Source of the DNA: Deltaproteobacteria bacterium
GTDB lineage: Bacteria > Myxococcota_A > Polyangia > JAAYKL01
Length of the DNA: 47,660 bases
Assembly (NCBI GenBank): GCA_016937015.1
Contig: JAFGWT010000059.1
Location: forward strand, 1 to 47,660
Direction of reading: 5' to 3'
Below the pieces are notes generated by a model, which searched no databases, was not told the origin of the DNA, and saw only the letters and a program-made list of their open reading frames with translations. Below are positions 23,762 to 45,045 of the stretch, piece after piece. Position 1 is the first letter of the stretch; each line of letters begins with the position of its first letter. A program made the position numbers and the translations under genes.

Positions 23762-25162
23762 TCATGAAGCACTTCCCTGACTGGCGGTGTTGGCTTTGCG
23801 ACCACTTCGATGCTGCACGTATGCACCTAAAAGTGCCCATGGGAGCACGATAAAGTTCCAAGGTTTATGAATATGTTTTAACCAGACGATGCCAAGTTTG
23901 TAGGATAAATGGGATTTTATCTTCAGTGCGTCCTCATAATCCGGATATGTCGTCAATGGTGGCATCTCAACTGGTAATTTCTTCTGATCCCGCCTATGGT
24001 GCCATGCCACCAGCCAGAGAATAACAGGTAGAAACAACAATTTCCAGACGGCCCGGCTACTGGACAAAATTTCGGCACCAAGGCAATATGGCAAGCTGTG
24101 TCTAATCTGACTTGCCGCGCTGTGCAACCAGGGACAATATACATTTTTCAGATGACGGTTTTCAGAGTAGTAACTTTCCACTTCTTCCTGGGCGGACAGC
24201 AGTTGCCCAAGAAGCAATTCATTTTCGGCGCCCAACTCAATATGCTTTCGTGCCTGACTCCCCAGTTTATCCTCCAACTGCGCAATTGACTCATTTCGCG
24301 CTGTTAGAATTTCTTCAGCGGTGCGCGCCTGCGTAATAATATCCTGCATCGCCCCCAATATTTTCATGGGTTCCATGCGCGCTGAAACGTCGTCTGGCAG
24401 CGCCATACTGGCTTCTTTTTGCAGTTCGCGGTAAAGTGTCAACTCCCGAGAAATGTCGATTTGAAGATTCGCGTAAAAATATTTTAGCACTTCAATAGTG
24501 GAAAGTGTCGACTGAATCCCCCGCTGCGCACTATCTTCCAAAGACACTGTTCCGAATTGCTGCGCCCCCCCCTTGTTCAAAAAATCATTCACACAGCTTA
24601 AAAACTGTTCTTTCAGATTGAGCACACCATTTGCTTCCACCAGCAAACACCGATTTCGGTGGATTCGGTAGAACGAAAGCAACACCCGGTTATACTCAAA
24701 CCATCCATTCGCAGTATTATTGCTTTCAGCAGAATAAGGCCCCTGCGTTTCGCATGCTTTGTCGACATCAGTGGTTGTGGGAATCGGGCTATAGCAGGGG
24801 TGATCAAAAACAAAAATGAAATACAGGTCAGGCACCGACTTGAGCCAAAAATCGAGCAGGTGCACCATTTGGGGATCCGACCAGCACCACACCGCGTTTT
24901 CACCACGTTTCGCAAAAAACGCCTCAATCAGATGACACCAGTCGTTCCCAGGAGAAATCCCGGTCTCAATATTATTCGGGGCAGAAATTGATTCAGAAAA
25001 AACGGGAACATTCAGAGAACGGCAGATTGCCCCGGTGATCTCCTGGGGGGTGAGCGACTCTGATGGCGCCGCAGACGGAGACATCATACCCCAGGTCAAC
25101 AACATCTGCTCAACCTGGCGAAATCCTGACGAGGGGTGCCCGACAACAACCGTTTTACTCAT
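23762..25162 (-). CDS. Divergent sulfotransferase-like protein with membrane tail (paralog 1)
   Basis: A 466-residue member of a three-paralog family in this window. The N-terminal domain (about 1-200) follows the layout of sulfotransferase-fold proteins: GHPSSGF loop at 8-14, WSDPQMVHLLDFW at 94-106, strand plus DHP at 115-122, and RCLLV at 171-175. The residues that normally bind PAPS (Arg and Thr in the RSGT loop, Arg before the HP/SP turn) are replaced. A coiled-coil stretch (about 270-340) leads to a conserved tail (357-450) with two copies of L-x-Y-x-L-G, ten residues, W, then LP. It is the first gene of the minus-strand assembly operon. Sulfation is possible but doubtful; a scaffold or a different donor is also possible. 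Confidence 0.65.
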   Translation of the reverse strand: MSKTVVVGHPSSGFRQVEQMLLTWGMMSPSAAPSESLTPQEITGAICRSLNVPVFSESISAPNNIETGISPGNDWCHLIEAFFAKRGENAVWCWSDPQMVHLLDFWLKSVPDLYFIFVFDHPCYSPIPTTTDVDKACETQGPYSAESNNTANGWFEYNRVLLSFYRIHRNRCLLVEANGVLNLKEQFLSCVNDFLNKGGAQQFGTVSLEDSAQRGIQSTLSTIEVLKYFYANLQIDISRELTLYRELQKEASMALPDDVSARMEPMKILGAMQDIITQARTAEEILTARNESIAQLEDKLGSQARKHIELGAENELLLGQLLSAQEEVESYYSENRHLKNVYCPWLHSAASQIRHSLPYCLGAEILSSSRAVWKLLFLPVILWLVAWHHRRDQKKLPVEMPPLTTYPDYEDALKIKSHLSYKLGIVWLKHIHKPWNFIVLPWALLGAYVQHRSGRKANTASQGSAS

Positions 25163-25558
25163 GAAATCAATATCTTTCTATCAAAAAAATCATGCTTTGA
25201 CTCATGCCATTATTCACAAATCCAGTCAATTGACTACCCCATTTTGAAAGGCCGCAACAGCGCGCACCACATTAAATCAAAACACGAATAAACATGGGAT
25301 TAGATACACATAATATCTTGAAAAATTTTCGTCGATATTACACACTGCCTCTCTTGAAATGCATGCGACATTTGTGTGAGACGGAATACACTACATCGCA
25401 CATAACTATTCGGACGTGAGCCGTCAGAGGGAAAATCGCTTCGGGTCTGTCAGCACGCAGGTGCAGCAGAAAAAGTCACTTAACAACAGCACTCCAATCT
25501 GAATAATCCAACAAATTTGAGACAGTTGCGAGAAAAATGCTGAACCTGAGGAAAAAGA
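25163..25558. other. Divergent intergenic region between the two assembly operons
   Basis: This 396-bp AT-rich stretch has no gene that I can support. It must contain the promoters of the minus-strand operon (starting at 25162) and of the plus-strand operon (starting at 25559). I see no strong consensus -35/-10 pair, no RfaH ops element and no obvious operator palindrome. The Shine-Dalgarno GAGGA for the 25559 gene lies near its right edge. Confidence 0.5.
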
Positions 25559-28500
25559 ATGCACTCAACACTTCATTCAACTCTTAATAACATCATCCAC
25601 ATTGCCCCCCCCCTGCAATCTGGCACCTATTGTGGAAAACACTTAAAATATCCAGAACTAAGCGGCACACGAAAAGCCGAAGGCGGCCTGCGGCTTAATG
25701 GAAAATACAAGCAGAACCAACCGACACTGCCATTAATTTCGGTCATCACGGTTGTATATAACGACGCCGATTCGATTGCAAAGACCATTGAATCCGTCCT
25801 TGCGCAAACGTACACCAATGTCGAATACATCATCGTCGACGGCGGTTCGACCGATGGGACTATTGAAGTCATTCAGCAATACCAAGACAGTATCGACTAT
25901 TTTGTCAGCGAGCCGGACACTGGTATCTACGACGCCATGAACAAAGGACTCTCCCTCGCACAGGGGGCGTATATTGGCCTGCTGAACAGCGCCGACTGGT
26001 ATGAACCGAACGCGCTCGAAGTCATTGCGGAGAATGCACTGGAGGCGCCAGGATGCATCATTGCCGCCAGGCAACGAACACTTGACGAAAATTTTCGCGA
26101 GATAAATACCAGAGGTCTTCGATTTTCAGATGAACGGGCGTTCCTGAGAATGCCCGTCAGTCACCCAGGTACGTTTGTGCCATTTGAGGTCTATGAAGCG
26201 ATCGGAAATTACCGCGGAGACAGGTTTTCAATAATCGCGGACTGGGATTTTTTTATTCGCTGCGTTGAGAAAAACATACTGTTCCACAGCGTAAACAGTG
26301 TCGTCGTCAATTATTGGAGAGTTGGTATTTCAGCAATGGGCGATTCTGCCGTTTATGATGAGCAGGTTCGCTTATTGCAATCCAGGTTTCCAACCCTTTC
26401 CCATTATAGTCTGTTGTTCATGCTGTCTTCACGTATGGACGAAAACACGGGGCGAGATATCCGCGGCACTATACAGCAATATCTAAACAAAGGCGTCATC
26501 ATCCCCGAAAAAATAATGAGCGCCGTCTATCTTTATCGATTTAAAAATCAGTATCCGTCGTATGAACACTGGCTTGAAAGTTTTGGTAAAGCCTGCAGTG
26601 CAAGAAATGGCGAATTTGGCATGTTGGAGGAACGGGATGAACTCCAAATGCTAATTGAGCAGGGCAATCAGTTGCGTCTTCGCGAGCAGGAAATCTGGCT
26701 TTTAGGAGACAGAGGATGGGACGCACAGGACAACGCGTTCGTATTTTATTGCTGGCTGAAAGAACACCATCCAGAGATCAACGCCTGGTTTGTCATTACC
26801 CAGGAGTCCCCTGATTTTGAAAAAGTGCACCAAATAGACCCTGAGACCGTTGTTGAGTATAATAGCACTGAACACAAGCTGTATTATCTGTTTTCCAGGC
26901 ATGTCATTTCCTCTCAGGGCGGGGACCATTGTCATCCGTTAAACTATGACTTGCTTAAAACCAGTTACACCGACGTATTTACAAGTCAATACACTTTTCT
27001 TCAGCATGGTGTGTTAAAGGACTACATTTCATACTTCCACAAAGGACAATTCTACAACTGTCTTTATGCGATTACGGGAGATATGGAGAAAAATCTGTTT
27101 GAACACAACTATCAGTACACCAGTTACGATCTGCTGTTATCTGAACTTTGCCGTTACGATATTCTTCACGATCACAAGCCGGACAACTCGGAAGAACACA
27201 AACCGTTTATTTTGTTTATGCCAACCTGGCGCAGTTGGATAAAAGACGAAGAGGGATTTTTAAATTCAGAATATTTCAAAATGCTGGACAAACTGCTGCA
27301 ATCCCCGCGCCTGATCGAAATGATTGATGGTTCCGGCTATATTTTTAAATTTCTCATTCACCCCAATTTTGCCAAATACGCTCATTTATTAACCACAGGT
27401 TCAGATACCATCGAAATATTGAGCAGTGACACTGATATTGGGAAAATGATTCGCGAATGTTCTGTGATGATTACGGACTACTCGAGTTCGATTATGGACG
27501 CCGGCTACATGGGAAAACCCGTGATATATTTTCAGCCCGACTACGAAAAATTTCGTTCAGGTCATTATCTCGAAACAGCAGCGTTTTCTTACACTGATAA
27601 TGGTCTGGGGCCAGTGACAACGGATACGGATGTATTGCTGGATAATCTATCGCATATTCTTGAAGCTGGCGCCCAAAGCGATGATATTTATATAAAGCGG
27701 TCTGACTATATATTCAAATATCGAGACGGTCGCGCCAGACAGCGGACATTCGATGGAATAAACCGATTTGGTGATGAAACTGCGCATATTGCTCAGTTTT
27801 ACGAATCTGAAGAACTTATCCCAATGGGGCCGCTGAGTATATTCATAAAAAAAGGCATTCTGCATCTATTCCACTCCCCAGAGGAAAAAGATGGTATTCT
27901 GGCTGATGAGTTCTCAATTCGCTACACGCAATACGGCGGCAAAAAAAAGACACAGAAAGTCAATCTGGTTCGTTCTTCGTTGTATCTCAATACAAAACGA
28001 GGCGGTGTCTACGCGTTTTATACCCTTCTCCCGGAATTAACCACTGAGGTGGAATGTCTTGGGAATACGTACACCATCCCTCCAAACGCCTTGAGAGAAA
28101 ACACGAAGCCTAAAAAAACGCTGACCGTCGCACAGCTTGGATTTACGATTCGTGGAGGGGCCGGCATTGCATCGGTTCGCCTTCATAACGGACTCAATCA
28201 AACCGGTGTTGAGAGTTACGTTTTTCAAAAGGAAAACCCGCGTATTGCGCCTTACCATATCCACACATTTGAAAATGACGCATCCGCGACTCTAAACGAG
28301 TGGACCAACGCCACAAATACGTATAAGGGAAACACATTCTTTTCGATGAGCATCCCCAATGAGCACGAATCTCTTGATTTTCTCTTTAACTTTGACGTTG
28401 TCAATCTGCACTGGACTGCCAAGTGTCTATCCGCAGAAAACATTGCCTACCTAAGCCATGGTGACAAACCTGTGGTGTGGACAATTCACGACATTAACGC

Positions 28501-30187
28501 TATCTCCGGCGGCTGCCATTATTTTCATGGGTGTACGCAATGGAAAACCGACTGCATGGATTGCCCCCAGCTCAAAGATCATTTTGACAACTATCCCGCC
28601 CAGCTGCTGGCAGCCAAGAAAAAGTATTTCAACACCAAAAATATGACAATAGTGGTCCTCAACCGTCATTTTAAACGACTGGTGGAGCAAAGTCCGATCT
28701 TTAAGGATTCCCGGATAGAGATCATTCCCAACAGCATTGATACAGAAAAATTTCGTCCGTTAGATGTTAATGTTTTTTATCGGCGGCTGAAACTTGAACG
28801 GGAAAAGCGCTACATTCTATATGTGGCCGCCTACGCAAGCACCATTAAGGGCTACAGCGAATTCGAGGAAACCATTCGGCTCCTAAGCCAAAAGGAATGC
28901 GCAGAGAATACAGAAATTCTACTTGCAGGCGACTTGCCGCCCAATCGAAATATTGAACTGCCGTATGTTGATCTGGGAAAAGTGTCTGAGCAGGTTCTTA
29001 TTGAGCTATACAACATTGCCGAACTGACAGTTGTTTCCTCCATTGAGGATAATCATCCCAATGTTATACTCGAATCCATTTCCTGTGGCACACCTGTGGT
29101 AGGTTTTAAGGTCGGCGGATTGCCGGATATTGTCACGGATGGCGAAACCGGTTACAGCGTTGAGATTGGTGACTGTGCGGCGCTTGCAGACAGAATTGAA
29201 AAGGTTTTGACCGGCCCAGACATGTCCGAAAATTGCAGAAACTATGCAGAGAAAAATCTGAAGCTCAGCGTTCAGGCAGAGCGATACAAAAAACTCTACC
29301 AGGAGCTGTGCCAAAAGCCTCGCTTCACTTCCCCCATTCGGAAAAAAATTCCATATGTATTTCCCGAAACAGCGGTTTCATGGGCGAAGATGAACGAACA
29401 GGCACTGCTATGGAATTTCAAACGAAACGCATCAAAGGCAAATGTTGATTTGACCGCTTTTTCGTCACGGGTTGGCGTGCCGGTGCCAACGCGATTCAAC
29501 AATGCCTGTTTTAAAGCTGGATGGTCATTTGGCGAACAGTGGGGGCGTTGGACATCAAGTGGTACCGCAGTTCTGAAACTCAAGCTTCAGGACTTTAGAG
29601 AAGGTCCGCTGACAGCAACGTTTTCCATAAAATACAGCCGCGTTAAACAGGTTCGACAAAATGTCAACGTCCATGTGAACGGGGGTCTTACCCCTTTTGC
29701 ATACAATGGCACGCGTCTCATATTTCCCGTAACTCCAACGTCAGAAAAAGAAGTGGAGATTAAGTTCCATATCAAAGGGGTTCTGTCGCCCTATGAGCTG
29801 GGCACGACTGGCGACAAGCGACAATTGGGACTGGGTATTGACTGGTTCAAAATCGATAGTGAACAGTTCGTTTCCGCCGGAGAGCGTGTCCGAAAAGAGC
29901 TGGAGTACCGTGTTGGACGCTCAATCGTCCGCTCATTCAAAAGCATCGTGGGAATACTTTTCCTTCCATGGATCATCTGGATGCAGGTTGCATTATATCG
30001 ACAGGATCGAAATTCAAATGACTGGCATAGGATACCACAGATTAAGGACTACTCAGATGCCAATGAAATCCGTCGTCACGCCAGACATTTGTCATACCGT
30101 CTCGGACGACTTTCAGTCGATGCATGGCGTCATAAGTGGAAGCTGACGATATTGCCATTTCAGATGGTGCGAGAATTATTCAAATAA
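25559..30187 (+). CDS. Giant GT2 / TagF-like / GT4 capsule polymerase-type protein
   Basis: A 1542-residue fusion. Residues 58-285 form a GT2 domain (IIVDGGSTDGT, SEPDTGIYDAMNKG). Residues about 380-745 match CDP-glycerol glycerophosphotransferases of the TagB/TagF type (FLQHGVLKD at 480-488, HPNF at 601, MITDYSSSIMD at 637-647). Residues about 853-1255 form a GT4 domain (VAQLGFTIRGGAG, TIHD, the EDNHPNVILES retaining-GT motif, CGTPVVGFKVGG). Residues 1310-1432 form a beta-sandwich-like region. The C-terminal 1448-1540 carries two copies of the YxxG-x10-LP tail found in the sulfotransferase-like paralogs. GAGGA sits a few bases before the ATG. It probably polymerises a repeat containing two sugars and a polyol phosphate at the inner membrane. 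Confidence 0.85.
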   Translation: MHSTLHSTLNNIIHIAPPLQSGTYCGKHLKYPELSGTRKAEGGLRLNGKYKQNQPTLPLISVITVVYNDADSIAKTIESVLAQTYTNVEYIIVDGGSTDGTIEVIQQYQDSIDYFVSEPDTGIYDAMNKGLSLAQGAYIGLLNSADWYEPNALEVIAENALEAPGCIIAARQRTLDENFREINTRGLRFSDERAFLRMPVSHPGTFVPFEVYEAIGNYRGDRFSIIADWDFFIRCVEKNILFHSVNSVVVNYWRVGISAMGDSAVYDEQVRLLQSRFPTLSHYSLLFMLSSRMDENTGRDIRGTIQQYLNKGVIIPEKIMSAVYLYRFKNQYPSYEHWLESFGKACSARNGEFGMLEERDELQMLIEQGNQLRLREQEIWLLGDRGWDAQDNAFVFYCWLKEHHPEINAWFVITQESPDFEKVHQIDPETVVEYNSTEHKLYYLFSRHVISSQGGDHCHPLNYDLLKTSYTDVFTSQYTFLQHGVLKDYISYFHKGQFYNCLYAITGDMEKNLFEHNYQYTSYDLLLSELCRYDILHDHKPDNSEEHKPFILFMPTWRSWIKDEEGFLNSEYFKMLDKLLQSPRLIEMIDGSGYIFKFLIHPNFAKYAHLLTTGSDTIEILSSDTDIGKMIRECSVMITDYSSSIMDAGYMGKPVIYFQPDYEKFRSGHYLETAAFSYTDNGLGPVTTDTDVLLDNLSHILEAGAQSDDIYIKRSDYIFKYRDGRARQRTFDGINRFGDETAHIAQFYESEELIPMGPLSIFIKKGILHLFHSPEEKDGILADEFSIRYTQYGGKKKTQKVNLVRSSLYLNTKRGGVYAFYTLLPELTTEVECLGNTYTIPPNALRENTKPKKTLTVAQLGFTIRGGAGIASVRLHNGLNQTGVESYVFQKENPRIAPYHIHTFENDASATLNEWTNATNTYKGNTFFSMSIPNEHESLDFLFNFDVVNLHWTAKCLSAENIAYLSHGDKPVVWTIHDINAISGGCHYFHGCTQWKTDCMDCPQLKDHFDNYPAQLLAAKKKYFNTKNMTIVVLNRHFKRLVEQSPIFKDSRIEIIPNSIDTEKFRPLDVNVFYRRLKLEREKRYILYVAAYASTIKGYSEFEETIRLLSQKECAENTEILLAGDLPPNRNIELPYVDLGKVSEQVLIELYNIAELTVVSSIEDNHPNVILESISCGTPVVGFKVGGLPDIVTDGETGYSVEIGDCAALADRIEKVLTGPDMSENCRNYAEKNLKLSVQAERYKKLYQELCQKPRFTSPIRKKIPYVFPETAVSWAKMNEQALLWNFKRNASKANVDLTAFSSRVGVPVPTRFNNACFKAGWSFGEQWGRWTSSGTAVLKLKLQDFREGPLTATFSIKYSRVKQVRQNVNVHVNGGLTPFAYNGTRLIFPVTPTSEKEVEIKFHIKGVLSPYELGTTGDKRQLGLGIDWFKIDSEQFVSAGERVRKELEYRVGRSIVRSFKSIVGILFLPWIIWMQVALYRQDRNSNDWHRIPQIKDYSDANEIRRHARHLSYRLGRLSVDAWRHKWKLTILPFQMVRELFK

Positions 30188-30190
30188 TCA

Positions 30191-32429: not shown

Positions 32430-33533
32430 ATGAAAGAATTTTTTTATTGCAGGATGCTTTGGTTTTTGATCGTATGCGCCAGCTGCTCCGCATCTCATAA
32501 TAAAACAGATGCGACTGCACCCAACCCAGGCTTTCACAATTCAGCAAATAATCCGATAGCAATTACCCGTGACGCAGATAAAAACGAGGTCAATGGGTCA
32601 TCAGCATCAGCAGACCCTTTTTCGGACGGTGCAAGCCAGATAGTTGATGGCATTTCGTATACAAAGCGCCAGTATGATCCGGACAATGACGCGTTTGTGA
32701 ACGAAATCGACATTCACCTGTTGGAGATTGCAGACGGTGTATCATTCGATGTGACTCGAAGTGAAGACAGAATGCAGACCACCTCAGAATTTGCACAGGC
32801 ATATGGCTGCATCGCCGCCGTAAACGGTGGGAATTTCTGGAATCTTGAAAATGCGGGTGACAAATATTGTGATGCCAAAGGTCATGTCTGGGGAGGTTCA
32901 AGCAGACAAAGCGAATATCATAAGGGAATAGAGTGGCAACCGCTTTCCCGCGATAGCCATAACCCAATTAATTCCCGTTATTACTTTGCCACGCACGGCG
33001 GAAAGCCATTTTTTGAGATGGACGAGGATTTCACCGTCGATACCGACCCCGATGCGCCAGACCTGGTACTGGGCGGCATCTGGTACCCGGTTGTCATCGA
33101 CGGCGAACAGGCATACAGTCATGAGTTTGGGATTAAAAAAGATATGCATGTAAACATCGCGGCCCAACGGACCATTATCGCAGAAACATATCATCAAACG
33201 GTTCTGCTTATTGTAGCGACATCAAAATTCGGTCGAGACCAATGCCTGACACGGGAACAAATGAGCTATTACATGGCCAATGTACTCATGGATGGACAGG
33301 AAGCGAACAAGGGCGTTAAAAATGCAATTGAGTTGGATGGCGGCGGCTCATCAACAATGTATATTCAAGACCGCGGCGTGGTGACGCCTCTCTATGATCC
33401 CCCATCAAAGACCTCCCCGGGAGGAGAGCGCATAGTGGCAAATCATATAGGGGTCGGCTGTACTCGAACTGGTCGTGCCCAAAAATTCGTTTCCCCTTTT
33501 AAAACTGTATTGTGTACACCTGCGGGTGAATAG
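32430..33533 (+). CDS. Phosphodiester glycosidase-family (NAGPA-like) lipoprotein
   Basis: A 367-residue protein of the phosphodiester glycosidase family (NAGPA domain, PF09992), named for the enzyme that uncovers mannose-6-phosphate by hydrolysing a GlcNAc-1-phosphodiester. Core motifs are CIAAVNGGNFW (about 127-137), ELDGGGSSTMYI (about 302-313) and the RIVANHIGV ending. The N-terminus is hydrophobic and ends in CASC, a near-lipobox with C19 as the likely lipidated residue, followed by a Ser/Asn/Asp-rich linker (20-70). The ATG abuts the galE stop with no gap, implying coupling. An envelope enzyme that trims a sugar-phosphodiester linkage would fit a phosphodiester-containing capsule, but the substrate is unknown. 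Confidence 0.78.
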   Translation: MKEFFYCRMLWFLIVCASCSASHNKTDATAPNPGFHNSANNPIAITRDADKNEVNGSSASADPFSDGASQIVDGISYTKRQYDPDNDAFVNEIDIHLLEIADGVSFDVTRSEDRMQTTSEFAQAYGCIAAVNGGNFWNLENAGDKYCDAKGHVWGGSSRQSEYHKGIEWQPLSRDSHNPINSRYYFATHGGKPFFEMDEDFTVDTDPDAPDLVLGGIWYPVVIDGEQAYSHEFGIKKDMHVNIAAQRTIIAETYHQTVLLIVATSKFGRDQCLTREQMSYYMANVLMDGQEANKGVKNAIELDGGGSSTMYIQDRGVVTPLYDPPSKTSPGGERIVANHIGVGCTRTGRAQKFVSPFKTVLCTPAGE

Positions 33534-33709
33534 TGTTGGCGCTGTACTGGATATGTCTGCGCCCAACAATCGCCCAATGTCATTTTTGATGCTCCCCTGG
33601 GCAAACGCCAGTTAAAAATTTTAATCGGCACTTGCACCGTTCATTCCAAAAGGGCTATTAAAGCGCGTGTTATATAATTTTGGACGCAAGTGATTTTTGG
33701 GAGAAGAAA

Positions 33710-34591
33710 ATGAAAAAAATCTGTTTCATTGGCAATTGTCAAATGCTGAGCCTGTGCATTTTTTTTGAAGAGCTTCTGGACAAATCCAAATACTCTGTTC
33801 AATGGTTGTGCCACCACGTGTCGTTTCATCAGCATTTGGGACCATGGTGCAGACGTCCGGATGACCCAACAACGTTTCGATGTCGCGTTATATTGGATGA
33901 AGAACAGGCACGCGAGGCGCTTTTAAATTGTGACATACTTGTATATCAATCCCTTTCAGTCAAAGCCTCGCCTGTATTCTCCCCATATCTGGACAACGAC
34001 GGCATTTTGAATTTGCACTGCACGAAAGTATCATTTCCCAGTATTCACTTCAAACTGGACGAAGTTGAACATAACTACAACTACATGAAGGAAAAAGAAC
34101 AGCTTCACAACATCTCAGTGCCTCTCGCTGATTATCTGCTTGAAAATTACCAAACCAGGTATTTGCTATTAAGAGAGCAGCACCCAACCACACTTTTTTT
34201 CAAGTATCTGATTGAACAGGTTGTTAAACAGGCAGAACTTGAAATGGATTTGGCCAAGCTCAATGACAAAAAATATGACCATGTAAACTATTTGGGCCTG
34301 CCGGGGGCAATCCTTTACGCACCGCCACCGGTAAGTACGCAGAGCACAGCAACCCCGAAGCATCCTGCAGTTAGTCCGGTTGCACCCGGAAACGTGATAG
34401 CCAAACCACAGCTTTCAAAACAGCAACAGCGTCTCTTAAAAATATATTTTAGATTGTTTGGGCGTCGCCTTTCGAAAAAGCAGCGACAGCTGCTCAGAAA
34501 CAGACCTCGAGCCTGTCTGAAGAGTTCTAAAAAAATCATGGATCGTGTTTTTTTCTTCATTCTGAAGCTGATGGAGCCAAAAGTTTCCTGA
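33710..34591 (+). CDS. WcbI-like protein, second copy, with basic C-terminal tail
   Basis: A 293-residue protein that opens ICFIGNCQMLSLCIFFEELL. The GNCQ loop, CDILVYQSLS and the later LREQHPTTLFFKYLIEQV match the layout of the WcbI-like protein at 17340-18116, but overall identity looks low. After about residue 205 comes a Pro/Ser/Thr-rich linker, then a strongly basic tail (KQQQRLLKIYFRLFGRR to LLRNRPR) with hydrophobic residues at the end, which could contact the membrane surface. A TTG-initiated longer frame exists, but GGGAG and GAAG lie just before the ATG at 33710. It is the last gene of the plus-strand assembly cluster and converges on the BspA-like lipoprotein gene, 6 bp away. Confidence 0.72.
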   Translation: MKKICFIGNCQMLSLCIFFEELLDKSKYSVQWLCHHVSFHQHLGPWCRRPDDPTTFRCRVILDEEQAREALLNCDILVYQSLSVKASPVFSPYLDNDGILNLHCTKVSFPSIHFKLDEVEHNYNYMKEKEQLHNISVPLADYLLENYQTRYLLLREQHPTTLFFKYLIEQVVKQAELEMDLAKLNDKKYDHVNYLGLPGAILYAPPPVSTQSTATPKHPAVSPVAPGNVIAKPQLSKQQQRLLKIYFRLFGRRLSKKQRQLLRNRPRACLKSSKKIMDRVFFFILKLMEPKVS

Positions 34592-34597: not shown

Positions 34598-36556
34598 CTA
34601 AATTTGACCGCCATCCATAATGGTCCAACCATGATCGGCTATCAGTCTGGCTCTGGCGTCTGCCGGGGCGCCTTCATGATAGGTGCTGTTCCCTCCCGAA
34701 AAAATCACATCATCCTGCACAACCTGACTTTCCCATGCGATGAGCAGTTTATCGTAGTTCTCGCTGGACAATGTCAGATTGTAAAACATATCCGCCATGG
34801 AAGTGACCTTCGAAATATCCCATAATGCAACGTCCGGATTAAGTTCGGATAAATCGAACCATACCAGCAGCCACCAGGGCTTGCACGAAAACAATCCATC
34901 CAGCACAGCAACCCTTGACGTGTTCCAGTTTGAAATATCCTGACGAAAAAAAGGTGCGCACTGAAACATGTAGCTCATATCAGCCACATTGGATGTATCC
35001 CAACTGGAAATGTCCTGGTTAAAGGCAGATAGCATCGGTAGATATCCACACCCGGATTCACCACAGTCACCGTCATCCATTCCATTAAAGCCCGCGAACA
35101 TATGGCTCATATTGGTTACGCTGGATGTGTTCCATGTGGAGATGTCCTGGTTGAACAGAATCGCCCCATAAAACATGTAACTCATGTCGGTCACCCTGGA
35201 AGTATCCCAGCTGGAGATGTCCTGATTGAAAACATTGATTTGGGGCCGATGCTGGTAATATTCGTCCCGCCAATCGAGTATCCCTTCAAACATATGGCTC
35301 ATATCCGTTACATTGGCGGTATTCCACGACGACAAATCACCGTCAAAAGATGTTGCGCCTTCAAACATGTGGCTCATGTCCGTTACATTGGCGGTATTCC
35401 ACGATGACAAATCACCGGTGAAAGATGTCGCACCGTCAAACATGTGGCTCATGTCCGTTACATTGGCGGTATTCCACGATGACAAATCACCGTCAAAAGA
35501 TGTTGCGCCTTCAAACATATGACTCATATCGGTGATCCCTGACATGTCCCAACTGTTGACCGATGGAAACCACACCAATTTTGAACACCCTTTAAACGCA
35601 CCCTGAAGGCTGGTTGTATCAGAAAGTTCTGGCATATCCGTTGCCGTCACTCGAAGATCCAAACAGCCGGCAAACTGTTCTGAGGTGTTCCCCAATGAGA
35701 GCGTTCCCCATTGTTTAATCTCTCTAATTCGATGACTGTTTTGAGTACCCACCAGCGACGCTGAAGTGACTGTATTACCGGCAAATGCCCAGCCCTTGAT
35801 GGTACCGTTGATGACCACCTCATATTGGCCGGCACTGTATTGATGCGTTTTCGCTTCATCATCCCAGCCAGTAACAGTGTCTACGGTTCCATCGCCCCAG
35901 CTAACCGTAAAATCGTATTCTCCCGATGGAACAAGCGGAAGCGTAACCGATTCCGCCGAAGACACCTTCCAAAGAGAAATAAACGACCGGTCATCCTTAT
36001 AAGTTTCGCAACGATACCCCGACCAGCCACTGTCGCATTGCCAATCTGTGCAGATGCCGGGAGTGGTCCAACCGGCATTGGGGATAAGATAAATGCGTGT
36101 ATCTTCAATCACCGCAGTGGAGTGAATCGGTGCGGCAGGATCGGCGACGCATGGTACCAGTTTCGAAGTAATGCACCCACCGTCATATACGTATTCCGGT
36201 TTGCACTCGCATGTATACCCGCTGTCAGTATTGACGCAAATCTGTGTAAAATCACATTCACTGCCATTGGCCAAACAGTAATCCGTCATTGTTCCCGTGT
36301 CCGCTCCCGTGTCCGATGTTTCGGCGCCAGTGTCCGATGATGCGCCTGTATCGATGGTGTTCCCTGTGTTGCTATCGGCGGCGGATAATGTCTCCGTACC
36401 ACTCATTGATGACGTGTCTGGGTCGATGGCGGATGAGGTAGCCGTGTCAGCGCCTGGTTTGAGTGATGTATCAAATTCTGTTGTTGAATCTGTGACAGCG
36501 TTGCAGGCCGGAATAAATATGAAGAGCATAGAAAGGATAAGCGTATTAAATTTCAT
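34598..36556 (-). CDS. BspA/DUF285-repeat surface lipoprotein with EGF-like module
   Basis: A 652-residue outer-surface lipoprotein. The signal peptide [18 protein letters not shown] ends in a lipobox with C18. A Thr/Ser/Asp-rich linker of about 70 residues follows (many DTG and DT pairs), then a six-cysteine EGF-like module ([10 protein letters not shown] to YVYDGGC). Next is a WGDG-containing beta region, then a run of 25-residue repeats with core MSxMFxGAxxFxxDLSxWNTxxVTD, the DUF285/BspA-type leucine-rich repeat. Three central repeats are nearly identical at DNA level. GGAGG lies just before the chosen ATG at 36556; the longer frame to 36634 has no signal peptide at its start. Such repeat proteins usually mediate binding at the cell surface. 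No cell-wall anchor is needed. Confidence 0.85.
35300..35524. repeat. 75-bp in-frame tandem repeats in the BspA-like gene
   Basis: Three consecutive, almost identical 75-bp units start at 35300, 35375 and 35450. Each encodes one 25-residue repeat. Only a few bases differ among them, which points to recent duplication or gene conversion. The flanking repeats of the same protein are much more diverged. Confidence 0.9.
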
Positions 36557-36779
36557 GGTGCCTCCATTATGGTTAAGTAACAGCAAGTATAGTCTGATCA
36601 GACCAGCATCGCAATGGCAATAAATCGGATGCAATAAAAAATGATTGCAACAAAATTACCATGGCGTAAAATTGAATCAGGCTTCTGATTTTTTTATTGT
36701 GAAAATTGTTTCAATGTCGCCTCATCAGGCCGCATTTGAAATTCAATTAACATTATTGTAATAACCAACGGAGTTAATT

Positions 36780-38477
36780 ATGAAAACACTACTTTTTGCT
36801 TGCGTCTTTGTTTTTTTGGGACTGACAGCGTGTGACGATCCCACCGAAACAGAGGATAACCTTTACCCACCCAATGGCACTGACAGAGATACCGCTCCCG
36901 TCGGCACTGACGACAGCAGCACCACACAACCCATCGGCACAGACGACACCAACACAACTGCCACAGTCGGCACAGACGACAGCAACACAACTGCCACAGT
37001 CGGCACAGTCGACAGCAACACAACACAACCCGTCGCCACAGACGACAGCGACACCACCGCGCCAGTGGGGACAGATACACCGCCAGTGGACACAGACAGT
37101 GCGACTGTTGATACGGATACGACCCCGCCAGCGCCGACCCAGCATGCCAATTGCCCGGTGTACGTGTCCAAGAGCGGATCAGATGACAACAGCGGCGCAA
37201 GCTGGTCCGAGCCTTTGTTGACGCCGCACACCGCAATGGCGAAGGCAAAAGAATACGTCGCTGACAGTGATGGCAGCACCTATTGTGAAATATGGATTGC
37301 CAAAGGCACTTACACCCCGGGTCCGGCAAACTCTACCAATCAGACATTGTTTATCCCGTTGGAATCCCATGTTCATATGATGGGGGGCTTCGCAGGTGAC
37401 GAAACCCATCCGCTCCAGCGCAACATCTCTTTAAATGAAACAATATTGAGCCCTGACCTGTTTGGAGACGATGAGGGCGATATGGCCAATGGGTTTGAAA
37501 ACCGGGAAGAAAACAGCTTCAGAATTCTTTCAACACCTGAAGGTGAAGCGATTAATGATGCGATCATTGATGGATTTGTGTTGGAGGGGCATCAAACTTC
37601 TCCCAAAGCGCAATCGTCAGCGATTATAATCGGGAATAGCAGTGTCAGGTTTGTCAACTGCGCTTTCAGATCGAATATTGGCAGGATGATACATGTTTCA
37701 AACTCGAACCTGATCATTGAAAACGGTCTGTTCGCTGGGAATGACTACTCTGATACGACCCTGCTCCATATCAGTTCTGGCAGTGTAACGCTGACCAACA
37801 CCAGTTTTATTGAGAATCGCGGAACATCGGCAGCTCAAATTTATAGCACCGACGATGCGATTACCACCATTCAAAACTGCCGGTTTCTGTACAACCAATT
37901 TGATGAAGACAGCACTTTGCTGGCAACCCCCGGATATCCATGGTCTGGGGAAAAATTTTATATCTCGTCCTCTTTGTTTGCCAACAACAGCATGCGTATT
38001 GTTTCAGCAACTGGCTACACCGGGGTTTTCCACATATATAACTCAGTTTTCCGCGATACTGATCACATTCTGATAGTGATGCCAGACCAGCCGTTCGTCA
38101 ATAATACCGTTTATTCTTCAGACGCCAAAGTTGCGCTGACCGCTGACATAAAAAACAGCATTGTCGTTGCAGACAAAGAGGTTATCCTTGGCGTGGGTGG
38201 CGACGCCTCGGTCGAGTACTCCTTTATCCAGGGCGGTTGTTTTCAATCTGACGCCAAAGAATGTCTGGAAGGCACGTTGGGCCACGACGTGACGCATACA
38301 GTGGAATTTACCGATACTGAAAATGGCGACCTCTCAGTGTTACCCACCTCCTCCACCATCGATGCCGGAAACGCCAGCCTTCTTCCAGACGACATTTCCC
38401 TTGATTTTGCCGGACAGGCCCGCATCAGCGGCACCACCATCGACATGGGTGCATACGAATATCCTGTAACGCCCTGA
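36780..38477 (+). CDS. Lipoprotein with Thr/Asp repeat stalk and right-handed beta-helix domain
   Basis: A 565-residue predicted surface lipoprotein. The signal peptide MKTLLFACVFVFLGLTAC ends in a lipobox with C18. Residues about 25-118 are a Thr/Asp/Ser-rich stalk built largely of 11-residue repeats of the type GTDDSNTTATV. The rest begins CPVYVSKSGSDDNSG, then IWIAKGTYTP, and continues as short beta strands with recurring N and G turns (FVNCAFRSN, LTNTSFIENRG, IQNCRFLYNQ), typical of right-handed parallel beta-helix proteins of the pectate-lyase-like fold. It ends with STIDAGN and the DMGAYEY motif common in such proteins. GGAG is 7 nt before the ATG. It is divergent from the BspA-like lipoprotein gene. 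Ligand or enzymatic activity is unknown. Confidence 0.82.
   Translation: MKTLLFACVFVFLGLTACDDPTETEDNLYPPNGTDRDTAPVGTDDSSTTQPIGTDDTNTTATVGTDDSNTTATVGTVDSNTTQPVATDDSDTTAPVGTDTPPVDTDSATVDTDTTPPAPTQHANCPVYVSKSGSDDNSGASWSEPLLTPHTAMAKAKEYVADSDGSTYCEIWIAKGTYTPGPANSTNQTLFIPLESHVHMMGGFAGDETHPLQRNISLNETILSPDLFGDDEGDMANGFENREENSFRILSTPEGEAINDAIIDGFVLEGHQTSPKAQSSAIIIGNSSVRFVNCAFRSNIGRMIHVSNSNLIIENGLFAGNDYSDTTLLHISSGSVTLTNTSFIENRGTSAAQIYSTDDAITTIQNCRFLYNQFDEDSTLLATPGYPWSGEKFYISSSLFANNSMRIVSATGYTGVFHIYNSVFRDTDHILIVMPDQPFVNNTVYSSDAKVALTADIKNSIVVADKEVILGVGGDASVEYSFIQGGCFQSDAKECLEGTLGHDVTHTVEFTDTENGDLSVLPTSSTIDAGNASLLPDDISLDFAGQARISGTTIDMGAYEYPVTP
36903..37067. repeat. 33-bp tandem repeats encoding the lipoprotein stalk
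   Basis: Five head-to-tail 33-bp units begin at 36903, 36936, 36969, 37002 and 37035. Each encodes an 11-residue Thr/Asp/Ser/Asn-rich unit. The third is nearly identical to the second. The array is in frame, so copy-number change would lengthen or shorten the stalk without a frameshift. Confidence 0.85.
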
Positions 38478-38603: not shown

Positions 38604-40280
38604 TCAATTCGTATGATTGCGAATTTTGAACAGGCAAGCGCCTTTCTCCATCTTTCGATAAATCAATTCATATTCCAGACCGAGTTTATCTAAATCTGAC
38701 TGCCATAATTCTGCAATTTCCTTTTCATCGGTACGCCTGTAGTCGTCGAGCACCAGATCAATTCCAGCGCCTGAAAATTCGTTCAAAACAACGGGCAAGG
38801 CGGGATAGCGAGCATGTTTTCCAGTCCCTCCCGGGGGCCCATCAACCAGCATCAGAATCTTCAAATCATTTGTAGCAAACTGCTTTTTCAATTCACTCAG
38901 TTTTTCCAGACAACTGTAATATTGATATTCGTTTCCAGTTGACGCACGATAAGGCTGCAACGGCACAAGCTCCAATTGCACCTGATTGCGGACGCCAAGC
39001 TGTTCAAGAATTCTAGCTGTTTTATCATGATACCGCTCAAGATGTTCAAACGCAACCTGCACACTCGCACGCTTCAGCAACCCCTTTTCCATTGCCACCT
39101 GGCGCGTCTCCGCCATCAATGCTGTTGAGGTGCCCGAACCAAACTCAAGAATCAAATCATAATCATTGTGCGCAACCAACTCCATTACCCAGAGCGCAAT
39201 ATCGGGGCTCACCGGCCACACATGCATATCAGGAAGAAAACGACCCTCTTTAAGGAAATACTGAATTCCCATGTACGACTCAAGCTGCTGCAACAGTGTC
39301 TCGGTTTGAGCCCGATTACTATCCAGAATCAATGTGCGCATTTTGGACAATTCACTGCCGAGTTGCATGGCGAGTGAAATCAACTTCATTTCGAGATGAG
39401 TATACCCGCCAACGACCGAACGCACATCTGGTTGTTCCATGGCAACCGCGTCTATACGGCCAGACTGTGCATTGGCAATTTTTTCATTCATCTGAAAGAG
39501 AACATCAACCGCTTCTTTTTGTTCTAAAACTGTCTTTTCGAGCGCTTGCAGATTGGGCGCCAATGCCCTGAATTCAGCATGTAGCCGTTCCTTCTCATCA
39601 ACGAGCGTTTCAATTCTTTTTTCAAGTCTACTTGCGTACCGACTGTAGTCCCGGACATAAACCCCATGCCCCAACCCAGGGTGCCGTTCAGCGGAACATC
39701 CGACACACATAAACCCCTTATCATTCATCAGCTGACCAACCTTTACTCTGGACAACTCCGTCAGTGAAGGCACCCTTTCATCCAGCACAACACGTAGTAT
39801 CACCACATCCAGCTGTTCCAATTCCGACTCTGATTCGGACATGAGCTCAATGCCTGGCAGGCAGTCCACCACAAGCCAGTTGGTGCCGTTGCAATGCTCT
39901 TTCATTAGCGATGCAACAGTTATAGCCTCAACTTCCGATTCAAATCGGAGTTGGATGTTGGGCCACAATCCCTTCAACCGTTTAGGCTCTATGAGGGCAC
40001 TTTCAGAACTGTTGGCCACATTGAAAAATCGCGCTTTCCCCGCTACAGGGGCCACAGTCGCCTGCATAAAAACCCGATTCTCGGCACTCCCAACAGTGCG
40101 CTCCAGGTGTTGTAGCCGCGACACTTCTGCATCGATAAAAAGCATCGGTACATCATCATATTTATTCAACACCCTGTACCAAGGCTCGGACCCGTTCCCC
40201 GCGCCCACAACGACTGCTGCTTTAATCGGGAATAGTTGCTCTATCCAACCCAAACCATCCACCGGGAATTCATAATACAT
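38604..40280 (-). CDS. Double methyltransferase-fold protein with central coiled coil
   Basis: A 558-residue protein with two Rossmann-like halves. The N-terminal half (about 15-210) resembles FkbM-type methyltransferases: AVVVGAGNGSEPW, FIDAEVSRLQHL, then LVVDCLPGIELM. The middle (about 215-340) is predicted coiled coil rich in Glu, Lys and Leu. The C-terminal half (about 370-558) carries a clear SAM-binding loop, LILEFGSGTSTALMAE, and LMLVDGPPGGTG, like small-molecule or sugar O-methyltransferases. I start at the ATG at 40280; the frame extends two codons further to a TTG. GAGGA is about 11 nt upstream. It begins 2 bp after the stop of the sulfotransferase-like paralog 2, so both are co-translated. 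It probably methylates capsule sugars or phosphates. Confidence 0.75.
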   Translation of the reverse strand: MYYEFPVDGLGWIEQLFPIKAAVVVGAGNGSEPWYRVLNKYDDVPMLFIDAEVSRLQHLERTVGSAENRVFMQATVAPVAGKARFFNVANSSESALIEPKRLKGLWPNIQLRFESEVEAITVASLMKEHCNGTNWLVVDCLPGIELMSESESELEQLDVVILRVVLDERVPSLTELSRVKVGQLMNDKGFMCVGCSAERHPGLGHGVYVRDYSRYASRLEKRIETLVDEKERLHAEFRALAPNLQALEKTVLEQKEAVDVLFQMNEKIANAQSGRIDAVAMEQPDVRSVVGGYTHLEMKLISLAMQLGSELSKMRTLILDSNRAQTETLLQQLESYMGIQYFLKEGRFLPDMHVWPVSPDIALWVMELVAHNDYDLILEFGSGTSTALMAETRQVAMEKGLLKRASVQVAFEHLERYHDKTARILEQLGVRNQVQLELVPLQPYRASTGNEYQYYSCLEKLSELKKQFATNDLKILMLVDGPPGGTGKHARYPALPVVLNEFSGAGIDLVLDDYRRTDEKEIAELWQSDLDKLGLEYELIYRKMEKGACLFKIRNHTN

Positions 40281-40282
40281 AG

Positions 40283-41884
40283 TCAATCCGTTCCTCGCAA
40301 TTTTACGTTCGCCTTACGATTGCGGCGGTATCCCATGTACGCGCCCAGCAGAGCAAAAGGCATTAGGATGAAATTCCACGGTTTGTGTATATGTTTCAGC
40401 CAGGCCTCTCCAAGCTTAAAAGAAAGATGACACTCAATTTTTTCCTTGGCTTCTTCGTAGTCGTCATAAGCCGCTATCGGTGGCAATGCCAGCTGCCGAC
40501 TTTTTTCTCTATGGCGTCTCGCCACAAACCACAGAGTGATAGGCAAAAACAGCAGCTTCCATACACTGCGCGCATGTCTGATCATGGTCGCGCCGATAAC
40601 ATAAGGCAGGTCTTCCTGAAGTCGCTTTGCAGCGCCCTCGGGATGCCTGAGACGGTGACGAGTGATAACCTGATTCAGCTGTCGGCGGATTTGCTTCAGA
40701 TGCGTATTGGCGATGCGCTCCGATTTTTCGAGATTGCCAGCAAGGGATTGATACTTCTGTTTTTCAGCCAAATTGGCCTCAAGGTGTTCCTGCGTTTCGA
40801 ACAACTGCGTCATCAGCAGCTGATAATCTTTTATTGCCTGCTCCTCTCGATGCTCGGTCACCTCCCTGTATTTTTCGAGAGATTCCAGCTGGGAGTTCAG
40901 CTGCTTTGCCTGCACCATCAGTTGATGCTTATCGCGCAATAAATCGCCAAGGCCCCGCCATGCTTTTAATATATCGACCTTTGAAAAATAAGATGTCCCC
41001 TGACCTGGCAATGTGGCAACTGCCTGAAGTTCCTCATACAATTCGATGTCCGCGGGAGACTGTTTCGCCATCGCATCAGCAAGCAAATTCATCAGTGGAT
41101 TGGCGCTAATAACATTGGGAGAAAAAGACGTCTGCCTCGCCAGCAAATCGCCAGGCATTTGCTGAGCTATTTCAGGCGCGCCAGTCTGTTCCAAACTCAT
41201 CAGAGCATCGTCAGGAGACTCTGACGATTTTGATGGCTCATGAGATTGATTGAAGTCACCAGTCAACTGCCCCACCGCAGAAGTTGTGGACAAATCATCG
41301 GACGATAGTCCTAGAAGCCCCTTTACTTCGTCCAGCCTGGACTTGTCGCCATTTGCAGCACATTCTGAATGAATCAGCAAACATCTATCCATATTGCGAT
41401 GATAAAACCGAAGCAACGCTTCGTTATAGCGCCGCCAGCTGCCTGTGGATTTTCCCACCAGCTCATCGTCGTCCCAATTGCTTGCATCACTGCTAAACAG
41501 TTCGGGCAATACATTGGTCGGATGATTATAAACCAGCACAAACATTAGATCGGGAATTGCATTCGCCCAGAAATCCAGTAAGTGGATGGCCGCCGGATCG
41601 GCCCACCCCCAAAGCGGCTGATCAAGATTGCCACGGACCAAATCCATCACAAGCCCATGCCATACTGGTGCAATATCGATCTGTTTCACCGGCCCACGTA
41701 AATCACTTTGGTTTCGGGCTACCGGAAAAAAACCATGCGCTTTGCACAGCGTGTGATCAATCTCTACAGCTGTCAGTTTTTCATGCAGTGCCGGCAATGC
41801 GGCACTCATACCAAAGTGCTGCAGCATTGATTCCACCCGCTCGTAGCCGGAATTGGGGTGCCCAACTATAATTATTTTGTTCAT
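40283..41884 (-). CDS. Divergent sulfotransferase-like protein with membrane tail (paralog 2)
   Basis: A 533-residue paralog of the proteins at 23762-25162 and 43096-45045. The N-terminal domain shows GHPNSGY (8-14), WGWADPAAIHLLDFW (92-106), VLVYNHP (116-122) and RCLLI (167-171). A Ser/Asp/Pro-rich linker (about 195-260) and a long coiled coil (about 315-405) lead to the tail with LPYVIG at 426-431 followed by W442, and LSFKLG at 487-492 followed by W503. The two hydrophobic stretches (KLLFLPITLWFV and FILMPFALLGAY) suggest membrane insertion or surface attachment. It starts a two-gene operon with the double methyltransferase. As in its paralogs, the usual PAPS-contacting Arg/Thr residues are missing, so the enzymatic role is uncertain. 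Confidence 0.65.
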   Translation of the reverse strand: MNKIIIVGHPNSGYERVESMLQHFGMSAALPALHEKLTAVEIDHTLCKAHGFFPVARNQSDLRGPVKQIDIAPVWHGLVMDLVRGNLDQPLWGWADPAAIHLLDFWANAIPDLMFVLVYNHPTNVLPELFSSDASNWDDDELVGKSTGSWRRYNEALLRFYHRNMDRCLLIHSECAANGDKSRLDEVKGLLGLSSDDLSTTSAVGQLTGDFNQSHEPSKSSESPDDALMSLEQTGAPEIAQQMPGDLLARQTSFSPNVISANPLMNLLADAMAKQSPADIELYEELQAVATLPGQGTSYFSKVDILKAWRGLGDLLRDKHQLMVQAKQLNSQLESLEKYREVTEHREEQAIKDYQLLMTQLFETQEHLEANLAEKQKYQSLAGNLEKSERIANTHLKQIRRQLNQVITRHRLRHPEGAAKRLQEDLPYVIGATMIRHARSVWKLLFLPITLWFVARRHREKSRQLALPPIAAYDDYEEAKEKIECHLSFKLGEAWLKHIHKPWNFILMPFALLGAYMGYRRNRKANVKLRGTD

Positions 41885-41979
41885 AAAATTCCAATTTCTT
41901 TTTTTCTTTTTCTTCTTAATGATAACTAAACGAAACTTTTATTTAGTTCGAAAATACATGCCATTTTTAAGCGAACGAG

Positions 41980-43095: not shown

Positions 43096-45045
43096 ATGGA
43101 CGCTCAGTTGCGTGGCTGTATCACAGTTCAGAAAAAAGAATACAAAACCAGTGATATCGATATTCGGACAACGACTAAGATTATCATCGTTGGCCATCCG
43201 GACAGCGGATATCAGCATGTAGAATCCACGTTGATAACCAATGGCATGCGCCCAGCGCAACCTTCCATGCGAGACGGGTTGTCGGCGCAACTGGTCACCA
43301 CTCAAATTTGCAGCGCCCATGGCGTAAACATAGATGCAGACAGCCTTAACATAACCGATTGGCAGGAGATCAAACAACTGGACGTAAGCCCGGTTTGGTA
43401 CGCATTGGTTCTCGATTTGCTTAGAGGAAATCTGAACCATTCGCTCTGGGGATGGGCCGACCCGATGGCGATACACCTTCTCGACTTTTGGAAGGAGGTT
43501 TTCCCTGACGCAACGTTTGTCCTCGTCTACAACCATCCTCAAACAGCTATCACCCATGGCGCGAACGCCGAAGCTGCCAGCGTCAAAGTGAACGATAATG
43601 CACCGTCGCCCGAGCAATCCATTCAAGGATGGCTCGCATACAACGCAGCCCTGCTGCATTTTTATCACAGAAACCAAAACCGATGCCTTCTAGTGCATGC
43701 CGATTGCACCGATAATAGAAACGGAGATATTTCCAGCCTGGCAAACGGGACATTATCCAGACTGAAATTCAGCGATAAAACAAACAGAGAACCCCTTGAT
43801 GCATTGAAAAGAAAAGAAGTGGACGACAATCTCAATTGCGACACTAAGGCCACAACAACAAGCACAAATGGGCAGAAAGCAAAAAAAAACACTTTTGAAC
43901 CGACTAGCCTTTTCAGATTCTCAAAAGAAATATCCTTGATACAAAATGAGGGGTATGGCACCACCGACAACCTTCTCGAACAGTATCTTGCCAACGCCAT
44001 TTTAAAACACTTTCCGGACGCCTCAGACATGTATGAGGAGCTTCAAGCTATCGCAAGTACAGAGTCGACAGAAAAAAATGTGGCCGAAATAGGTGCAAAC
44101 GTCGCATGGCATGCACTGCAAGACATATTGGCCGCCAATAATAAACTGATTCACGAGAAGTCCACTATTCAGCACCAGTTTGGCAGTCTGCGAAATGAAT
44201 TCCAACATGCGCAGGAGCAGCTCAAGCATTTACAGTCTATAGACGAACTGGCCGGTAAACAGAGCAAACAGCTGGAAAAGGCAGAGTTCCAGCTCAAAAA
44301 GTTGCAACAGCAAATTGAGCAAAAAGAAATCCAGTTAAGTTTTGAGAAAAGAGAAAAAGAAAGAACGGAGCAGGAACTCAGTCAGGAAAATCATCTTGTT
44401 ATTAAACAGCTGTTCACTGTTCAGGAGGCGCTGGAGAAAACTATCTTCGAATTTCGATCATTGGAAAAGCAACTGCAGGAAAGCAGAGCGATACTCTCAA
44501 ATCGCGAGACCGAACTGGCAAAGTATAAAAAAGAATCGTTACAGTCACAGCAGGACATCCTTCAGTTATCAAAACGTGAGAAAGAGCTTGCTGAAAAATA
44601 TAAAAATGAACTGACCCTCGCACAGCAGGAAATCCTTGAGCGCGATAGGGAAATACACTTACTCCGAGCCAACCAGAAACCCGTTTTTCTTGGTGCAAAA
44701 CAACGACAGCAAAATGAACTGATATACCAAATCGGATACACAATTGTGCAACTTGGCCAATCATTCTTTAAATGGAAGCTCCTCTTCTACCCTCTGTTTA
44801 TTCGAAAATTCCTAAAACAGTATATTTGTGAAACGGATCAGACAGCAATGTGGCTTCCGCCACTCTGCGAATACCAGGATTACGAAGAAGCCGTAAAAGC
44901 GCAAACGCACCTATCCTACCAGTTGGGGTTGACTTGGCAGAAGTATCATCTGAGATTTGCTTCATATTATTTAACGCCCTGGGCCTTACTGGGCGCTTAT
45001 CGAAAATGGAACAAAGCGAAACAGCCCCAAATTACTCAACGGTGA
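43096..45045 (+). CDS. Divergent sulfotransferase-like protein with long coiled coil and membrane tail (paralog 3)
   Basis: The longest member (649 residues) of the three-paralog family. After an N-terminal extension of about 26 residues come IIIVGHPDSGYQHVES, WGWADPMAIHLLDFW, VLVYNHP and RCLLVHADC, closest to paralog 2. A long Glu/Lys/Gln-rich coiled coil (about 350-530) separates this from the tail, where LIYQIG (542-547) and LSYQLG (606-611) repeat the module; the first copy has two extra residues before its Trp. GGAGG precedes the ATG at good spacing. It stands alone on the plus strand, opposite in orientation to paralog 2, between two stretches of decayed DNA. Sulfotransferase activity is uncertain for the same reasons as in its paralogs. 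Confidence 0.65.
   Translation: MDAQLRGCITVQKKEYKTSDIDIRTTTKIIIVGHPDSGYQHVESTLITNGMRPAQPSMRDGLSAQLVTTQICSAHGVNIDADSLNITDWQEIKQLDVSPVWYALVLDLLRGNLNHSLWGWADPMAIHLLDFWKEVFPDATFVLVYNHPQTAITHGANAEAASVKVNDNAPSPEQSIQGWLAYNAALLHFYHRNQNRCLLVHADCTDNRNGDISSLANGTLSRLKFSDKTNREPLDALKRKEVDDNLNCDTKATTTSTNGQKAKKNTFEPTSLFRFSKEISLIQNEGYGTTDNLLEQYLANAILKHFPDASDMYEELQAIASTESTEKNVAEIGANVAWHALQDILAANNKLIHEKSTIQHQFGSLRNEFQHAQEQLKHLQSIDELAGKQSKQLEKAEFQLKKLQQQIEQKEIQLSFEKREKERTEQELSQENHLVIKQLFTVQEALEKTIFEFRSLEKQLQESRAILSNRETELAKYKKESLQSQQDILQLSKREKELAEKYKNELTLAQQEILERDREIHLLRANQKPVFLGAKQRQQNELIYQIGYTIVQLGQSFFKWKLLFYPLFIRKFLKQYICETDQTAMWLPPLCEYQDYEEAVKAQTHLSYQLGLTWQKYHLRFASYYLTPWALLGAYRKWNKAKQPQITQR

Follow-up and report, generated by a model that had tools for sequence, protein, structure and literature searches.

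A portable two-repeat helical module of KfiB-family proteins and capsule enzymes, a candidate docking element of ABC-dependent capsule systems

Four proteins encoded in a capsule locus of a deltaproteobacterium (GenBank assembly GCA_016937015.1, contig JAFGWT010000059.1, positions 1 to 47,660; this whole stretch is called the window below) end in the same module of about 110 residues, made of two homologous repeats. The module is carried by unrelated enzymes in several bacterial groups, has a positive net charge, co-occurs with the capsule proteins KpsC and KpsS, and forms the C-terminal end of KfiB from the Escherichia coli K5 capsule system. From the homology to KfiB, which is reported to act in the formation of a membrane complex, from the charge and from the co-occurrence with KpsC/KpsS, we infer both that the module itself docks and what it may dock to. 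It is probably a portable, basic, helical docking module of capsule systems that depend on ATP-binding cassette (ABC) transporters, tethering enzymes at the membrane site of synthesis and export.

Four proteins of a capsule locus share a two-repeat module

The four proteins are P1 (466 aa; 23762..25162, minus strand), P2 (533 aa; 40283..41884, minus), P3 (649 aa; 43096..45045, plus) and a multidomain glycosyltransferase of 1542 aa, hereafter the GT (25559..30187, plus). P1 is homologous to P2 and P3 and is a member of our full-length alignment A6; P3 aligns with P1 and P2 and has same-genus homologs (L008 and L064; handles beginning with L or G are our own). Pfam assigns to the GT a GT2 domain (61-186, E 4e-27), a CDP-glycerol glycerophosphotransferase or TagF-like domain (373-733, E 2.4e-28) and a GT4 domain (1079-1232, E 2.8e-21). 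The module occupies aa 342-455 of P1 (23798..24139, minus), 411-524 of P2 (40313..40654, minus), 525-642 of P3 (44668..45024, plus) and 1434-1540, at the very C-terminal end, of the GT (29858..30184, plus), as delimited by hidden Markov model (HMM) matches. Out of 933 stop-to-stop frames, an HMM built only from modules found outside the window picked the four tails and nothing else (E 1e-25 to 3e-30; 97.5 bits for P1, 84.6 bits for the GT), and the tails are therefore not a chance similarity. A motif scan of the whole window in six frames found no protein beyond P1, P2, P3 and the GT.

Each module holds two LxYxLG...P repeats, whose motif copies start at residues 357 and 419 in P1, 426 and 487 in P2, 542 and 606 in P3, and 1448 and 1511 in the GT. 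Open reading frames (ORFs) and motif scan thus agree with an earlier note, made from the sequence alone, on the four proteins and on both copies in each; the spacings that it put at 61-64 residues measure 62, 61, 64 and 63, respectively. The exact ten-residue gap that it reported for both copies of P1, P2 and the GT is also there, and the gaps in P3 are 12 and 10. The tail of about 95 residues that it described is indeed shared, but the conserved unit is longer, about 110 aa, and begins some 15 residues earlier.

Profile comparison finds repeat 1 and repeat 2 to be homologous (hhalign probability 99.5%, E 1.7e-22), and the duplication inside the module is real. Among 136 aligned copies from all sources, columns Y21, G24, P41, Y69, D71, Y84, L86 and G87 are near-invariant and A11, L19, H81, L82 and S83 are nearly as conserved. 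Hydrophobic stretches surround the conserved proline, as in WKLLFLPVILWLVAW and WNFIVLPWALL. The GT module is not sister to those of P1-P3 in our tree (modest support), which led us to reject the idea that the GT tail had been copied recently from those proteins.

The module is a discrete helical unit

AlphaFold2, given an alignment of 43 diverse modules, models the P1 module as an all-helical discrete unit with a predicted local distance difference test score (pLDDT) of 89.9 and a predicted template modelling score of 0.80. Its helices span residues 11-16, 19-30, 34-38 and 40-56 and then 71-77, 81-92 and 98-117, forming two similar hairpins with four main helices. This matches the two-hairpin structure that had been suggested for the tail, standing apart from the catalytic domains. 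The module has no match in the PDB (best Foldseek E 5.5; best sequence E 0.09, without a significant stretch), and no Pfam family covers the tail. In the AlphaFold2 model of full-length P2 the module (418-530) follows a long helix (305-410), with a linker of pLDDT below 50 (408-415) between them; the idea that the tail is an integral part of a catalytic domain was rejected, as the P2 model sets the module apart through this low-confidence linker. DSSP assigns the whole stretch 305-410 (40655..40972, minus) to one helix, a predicted single helix or coiled coil of about 105 residues. A second recurrent motif, LLxQLHxVQEELExYYxENxxLK, lies in this coiled coil (P2 aa ~355-375) and in homologs in A6, KfiB and L012, sometimes twice.

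The N-terminal ~200 residues of P2 are mostly a confident alpha/beta domain, for which the best Foldseek matches are sulfotransferases (TPST2, E 1.6e-4, prob 1.00). Sulfotransferases dependent on 3'-phosphoadenosine 5'-phosphosulfate (PAPS) have a conserved 5'-phosphosulfate loop and an arginine that binds the 3'-phosphate. In the N-domains compared here the usual loop is replaced by GHPxSGY, and the position of the arginine is Tyr or Phe in 36 of 37 sequences. The label "sulfotransferase-like" given earlier to the three paralogs therefore stands for the fold, as judged from P2, and not for the cofactor-binding motifs. Catalysis by this domain is doubtful, since the PAPS-binding positions are not conserved and K5 heparosan is unsulfated (the abstract of PMC6691538 describes it as the unsulfated precursor of heparin).

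Unrelated enzymes carry the module

A DNA pattern designed on the second repeat (Y.D...A.....HLSYxLG) matched 72 stretches in 84,980 species genomes, with 68 motif-bearing ORFs, a list biased to modules that carry that second-repeat motif. The matches fall in Campylobacter, Helicobacter, Moraxella, Acinetobacter, Psychrobacter, Burkholderiales, Actinobacillus, Glaesserella, Vreelandella, Leclercia, Escherichia, Desulfobulbus and Chlorobiaceae, and in a deltaproteobacterium with a protein that matches the one in the same-genus genome G002. HMM searches of the initial set gave 88 module ORFs, those of the window, L008 and L012 included. Both searches bear out what had been an unverified impression, that HLSYKLG-like tails occur in capsule enzymes of other bacteria.

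The module is mostly C-terminal, yet central in L049:3-2084, L156, L157, L159 and L162 and N-terminal in L070:5201-7042 and L158. Clustering of the non-module parts of the proteins sets a large KfiB-like group of 38 beside about 20 other groups, all small. Pfam hosts comprise GT2, GT8, CgtA, Gly_transf_sug, hexapeptide transferase, ATPgrasp_TupA, DUF1919, DUF4422, DUF2972 and F5/8C, and host proteins include acyltransferase, O-methyl phosphoramidate (MeOPN) transferase and sulfotransferase-fold types. With so many unrelated hosts, a tail limited to one enzyme family was rejected; the HMM survey that had been proposed as a check instead places the module at N-terminal, central and C-terminal positions on many catalytic domains, and it does travel independently of its enzyme, as claimed. 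One Campylobacter protein of at least 1185 aa (L161:2-3556) has two complete modules (332-451 and 1072-1185). L166:8239-11709 (minus; 1157 aa) and L167:8570-12415 (minus; at least 1282 aa) have a single repeat each, and half-modules may exist.

In Campylobacter the module is present in 49 of 49 species-genomes, with 3 to 22 copies each. Within the window's own phylum it was found in 1 of 284 genomes, and a further same-genus genome, G002, has one module; in this lineage it is a patchy trait, probably acquired horizontally. Back-translation searches of viral contigs with the P1 tail or alignment A3 gave no real match, and phage records gave none. Matches in genomes of the G049 family were weak and partial (E 5e-4 to 0.1), most of them in ORFs of ~440 aa, and were treated as noise.

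P1, P2 and P3 belong to the KfiB family

E. coli K5 KfiB is a 562-aa ORF between kfiA and kfiC (Nissle 1917, CP022686; WP_001038329.1). The A6 profile, built from P1-P3 and relatives, matches its residues 1-558 (E 4e-136), and the module lies at 447-558 (E 9e-33). P1-P3 share with KfiB homology over the full length, the domain order of sulfotransferase fold, coiled coil and module, and a place in an ABC-transporter-dependent capsule locus, with kpsF/M/T/E/D-like genes in the window and KpsC/KpsS on another contig of the assembly. The GT is not of this family: GT2, TagF-like and GT4 domains replace the sulfotransferase fold and coiled coil, and only the module is common. Homologs with full modules also stand directly after kpsMT or galE in E. 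coli group 3-type loci; RefSeq labels some of them DUF8374, a name absent from our Pfam results. Of two Nissle 1917 records, NZ_CP007799.1 (L191) has no kfi genes between kpsS and kpsT, and NZ_CP022686.1 (L192) has kfiA-D there.

KfiB has been reported to be needed for the membrane localisation of the polymerase KfiC (PMC4366286). It is also said, in a review (PMC12834895) that cites Hodson 2000 and Hu 2024, to stabilise KfiA-KfiC and to interact with KpsM and KpsT. We regard the KfiB homology as the strongest functional evidence at hand, and it concerns the whole protein rather than the module alone.

The module accompanies ABC-dependent capsule export

KpsC and KpsS, the makers of the primer of poly-3-deoxy-D-manno-oct-2-ulosonic acid (poly-Kdo), are the hallmark of ABC-exported capsules. 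The window has an export cluster of kpsF-, kpsM-, kpsT-, kpsE- and kpsD-like genes at 8917..14900 (plus), recognised by family profiles (KpsF TIGR00393 above its cut-off; KpsM 1.4e-30; BexC/CtrB/KpsE 4e-84; Poly_export 3.6e-15). All 14 module-bearing records tested encode KpsC/KpsS, the 80-kb E. coli plasmid pAL.H8 among them. In the sampled family of G044, 5 of 301 genomes have the module and 47 have KpsC/KpsS, and all five lie within the 47 (hypergeometric ~8e-5); in four of the five, module and KpsC/KpsS are 6-24 kb apart on one contig. KpsC/KpsS are present in 48 of 49 Campylobacter genomes, where module genes often flank kpsC and kpsS.

Docking and its alternatives

The module would tether otherwise soluble capsule enzymes and KfiB-type scaffolds on the cytoplasmic side of the inner membrane, to the constant machinery that makes and exports group 2/3-type capsules and comprises KpsC, KpsS, KpsM, KpsT and the glycolipid primer. 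P1-P3 would act as scaffolds composed of a sulfotransferase-fold domain probably devoid of PAPS activity, a coiled coil and the module, and the GT would be a candidate polymerase with a module copy of its own. Lipid, KpsC/S, KpsM/T and the primer are all candidate targets. In line with this, the module is more basic than the remainder of its protein in 102 of 102 cases (median +10.8 versus -0.7 per 100 residues; Wilcoxon p 2e-18, which overstates independence as the sequences are related), and its net charge, +4 to +21, is always positive. Such a charge fits binding at an anionic surface, be it lipid, primer or partner. The portability of the module over many catalytic domains and its discrete predicted fold also speak for docking, and the Bcs3 bundle described below offers a published analogue.

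Several observations weigh against docking at the capsule machinery. The membrane localisation of KfiB is itself lost without KfiC (PMC4366286), so its module alone is insufficient for attachment. Most KpsC/KpsS genomes outside Campylobacterota lack the module, which therefore is not a universal requirement, and some Campylobacter genomes have many copies distant from kpsCS: the link to capsule loci proposed for the tail holds as an association, not as strict confinement. Campylobacter genome G092 has 10 modules and no KpsC/KpsS match, which may reflect an incomplete genome or a capsule-independent use.

The charge, together with the hydrophobic stretches at the conserved proline, would also suit a peripheral or monotopic membrane anchor whose basic and hydrophobic helices would lie in the inner leaflet without binding a particular protein. 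In Bcs3, the Haemophilus influenzae type b capsule polymerase, a comparable bundle may associate with the membrane, as its authors suggest (PMC10299916). Transmembrane-like hydropathy is, however, reached by 15% of modules only, and a typical transmembrane segment was rejected accordingly. The near-invariant LxYxLG and D/A/H positions exceed the needs of lipid binding, a generic anchor is not expected to track KpsC/KpsS, and KfiB depends on KfiC for its localisation (PMC4366286); we hold the anchor reading to be unlikely.

A strongly basic module that co-occurs with the makers of the poly-Kdo primer, and that is found on polymerases and side-group transferases alike, might instead bind a shared substrate, either the polyanionic poly-Kdo/phosphatidylglycerol primer or the nascent polymer, for acceptor handling or processivity. 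We give this reading little credence, because Campylobacter jejuni Cj1432 is active in vitro without its C-terminal 117 aa (PMC12096443), Bcs3 without its helix bundle is still active (PMC10299916), and chain structures vary widely among hosts. Least probable of all is a dimerisation, folding or solubility domain without a docking role: the compact predicted fold and the stabilising role given to KfiB in the review PMC12834895 would agree with it, but the catalytic parts of the Campylobacter enzymes function without the bundle (PMC12096443), its removal from Bcs3 raised rather than lowered the yield (PMC10299916), and the tie to KpsC/KpsS genomes would be left unexplained.

Phase-variable tracts lie at a fixed turn of the module

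We counted 34 tracts of at least 8 G/C in 82 unique Campylobacterota module ORFs, a figure that would under-count genes switched off by an upstream tract. Of these, 28 coincide with, or closely follow, the turn that leads into the last helix, two are at the equivalent turn of repeat 1 and four elsewhere, although the module makes up only 22% of the residues. Mapping placed the tract at model column 97 in seven complete modules and at column 35 in two N-terminal modules, equivalent positions of the two repeats. G8-G13 tracts are seen in Campylobacter and Helicobacter genes including L032:1818-3557, L164:2992-4683, L046, L051, L056, L157, L130, L070 and L158. A 2018 study had noted two sugar transferases with a distal C-terminal poly-G whose effect was "not clear" (PMC5808241). 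We put forward tentatively, with somewhat less than even confidence, that ABC-dependent capsule assembly lines of different phyla share this unnamed domain as their docking part and that Campylobacterota phase-vary their capsules by clipping only its last helix. On this reading, since the tracts occupy one fixed turn, a slip at column 97 would release an enzyme from the assembly site and leave the enzyme itself intact.

Other genes of the capsule locus

Directly downstream of P2 lies a partner gene (38604..40286, minus; 560 aa), identified from homolog neighbourhoods, whose product has a methyltransferase-like C-terminal half. Its homologs adjoin KfiB-like genes in about 20 loci of several proteobacterial groups; the family combines a variable coiled coil with the methyltransferase-like half, and the E. 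coli plasmid homolog has a weak Methyltransf_24 match. The capsule locus is interrupted by a DUF285 repeat protein with an EGF-like region (34598-36634, minus) and by a beta-helix lipoprotein-like protein (36780-38477, plus). WcbI-like polysaccharide biosynthesis proteins are encoded at 17340-18116 (minus) and 33680-34591 (plus), the latter a weak match below the cut-off. An NAGPA-type phosphodiester glycosidase with a lipoprotein-like start (32430-33533, plus) is unusual for a capsule cluster.

Comparison with known systems

The module brings together literature threads that have run separately: KfiB, with "no clearly defined role" yet needed for KfiC at the membrane, the Cj1432 bundle, the N-terminus of MeOPN transferases and the late C-terminal poly-G tracts. 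Being portable and of ~110 residues, it makes the number of enzymes gathering at the capsule export site directly testable by truncations and fusions. It would also provide a named domain for annotating proteins that now pass as hypothetical, and a practical rule for trimming capsule enzymes for in vitro glycan synthesis.

PAPS-dependent sulfotransferases (TPST and the CurM sulfotransferase) resemble the P2 N-domain in fold, a likeness of the host domain and not of the module, and differ in their PAPS-binding motifs, which the window N-domains have not kept. KfiB resembles P1-P3 along its whole length but is a single copy in K5, whereas the window has three paralogs and a further copy on a polymerase candidate, and the K5 locus lacks an annotated homolog of the partner gene beside KfiB. 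Bcs3 ends in an amphipathic C-terminal helix bundle (CT-HB) on a TagF-like polymerase, likened here by description; its authors proposed membrane or protein docking and found the bundle dispensable for catalysis, its removal raising the yield fourfold (PMC10299916). None of the ORFs of Bcs3 size matched the module strongly in 140 genomes from the G049 family.

The CJJ1420_fam model of MeOPN transferases (NF058596) has the module as its first ~100 positions; one full member is L070:5201-7042 (680 bits), which carries it at aa 5-121. In that family the module stands at the N-terminus, ahead of the DUF2972 domain, whereas the window proteins match the module part only (25 bits against a 600-bit cut-off, model positions 5-96) and are not members.

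The four-helix bundles of C. jejuni Cj1432 (915-1031) and HS19.11 (385-511) have, like the module, four main helices in 117-127 aa (PMC12096443, PMC13276843). In position and domain order they correspond to the module of L160:4278-7193 (DUF4422 + ... + module) and L156:2912-5437 (GT2 + module + ATP-grasp), an identity judged by architecture. The authors of the Cj1432 study call the function of its bundle unknown (PMC12096443). We found no mention of "HLSYKLG" in the papers searched; the open-licence papers and family libraries that we searched leave the common module unnamed and make no link to KfiB, and a prior description elsewhere is possible. Single instances had already been seen as helix bundles (Cj1432 and HS19.11; PMC12096443, PMC13276843).

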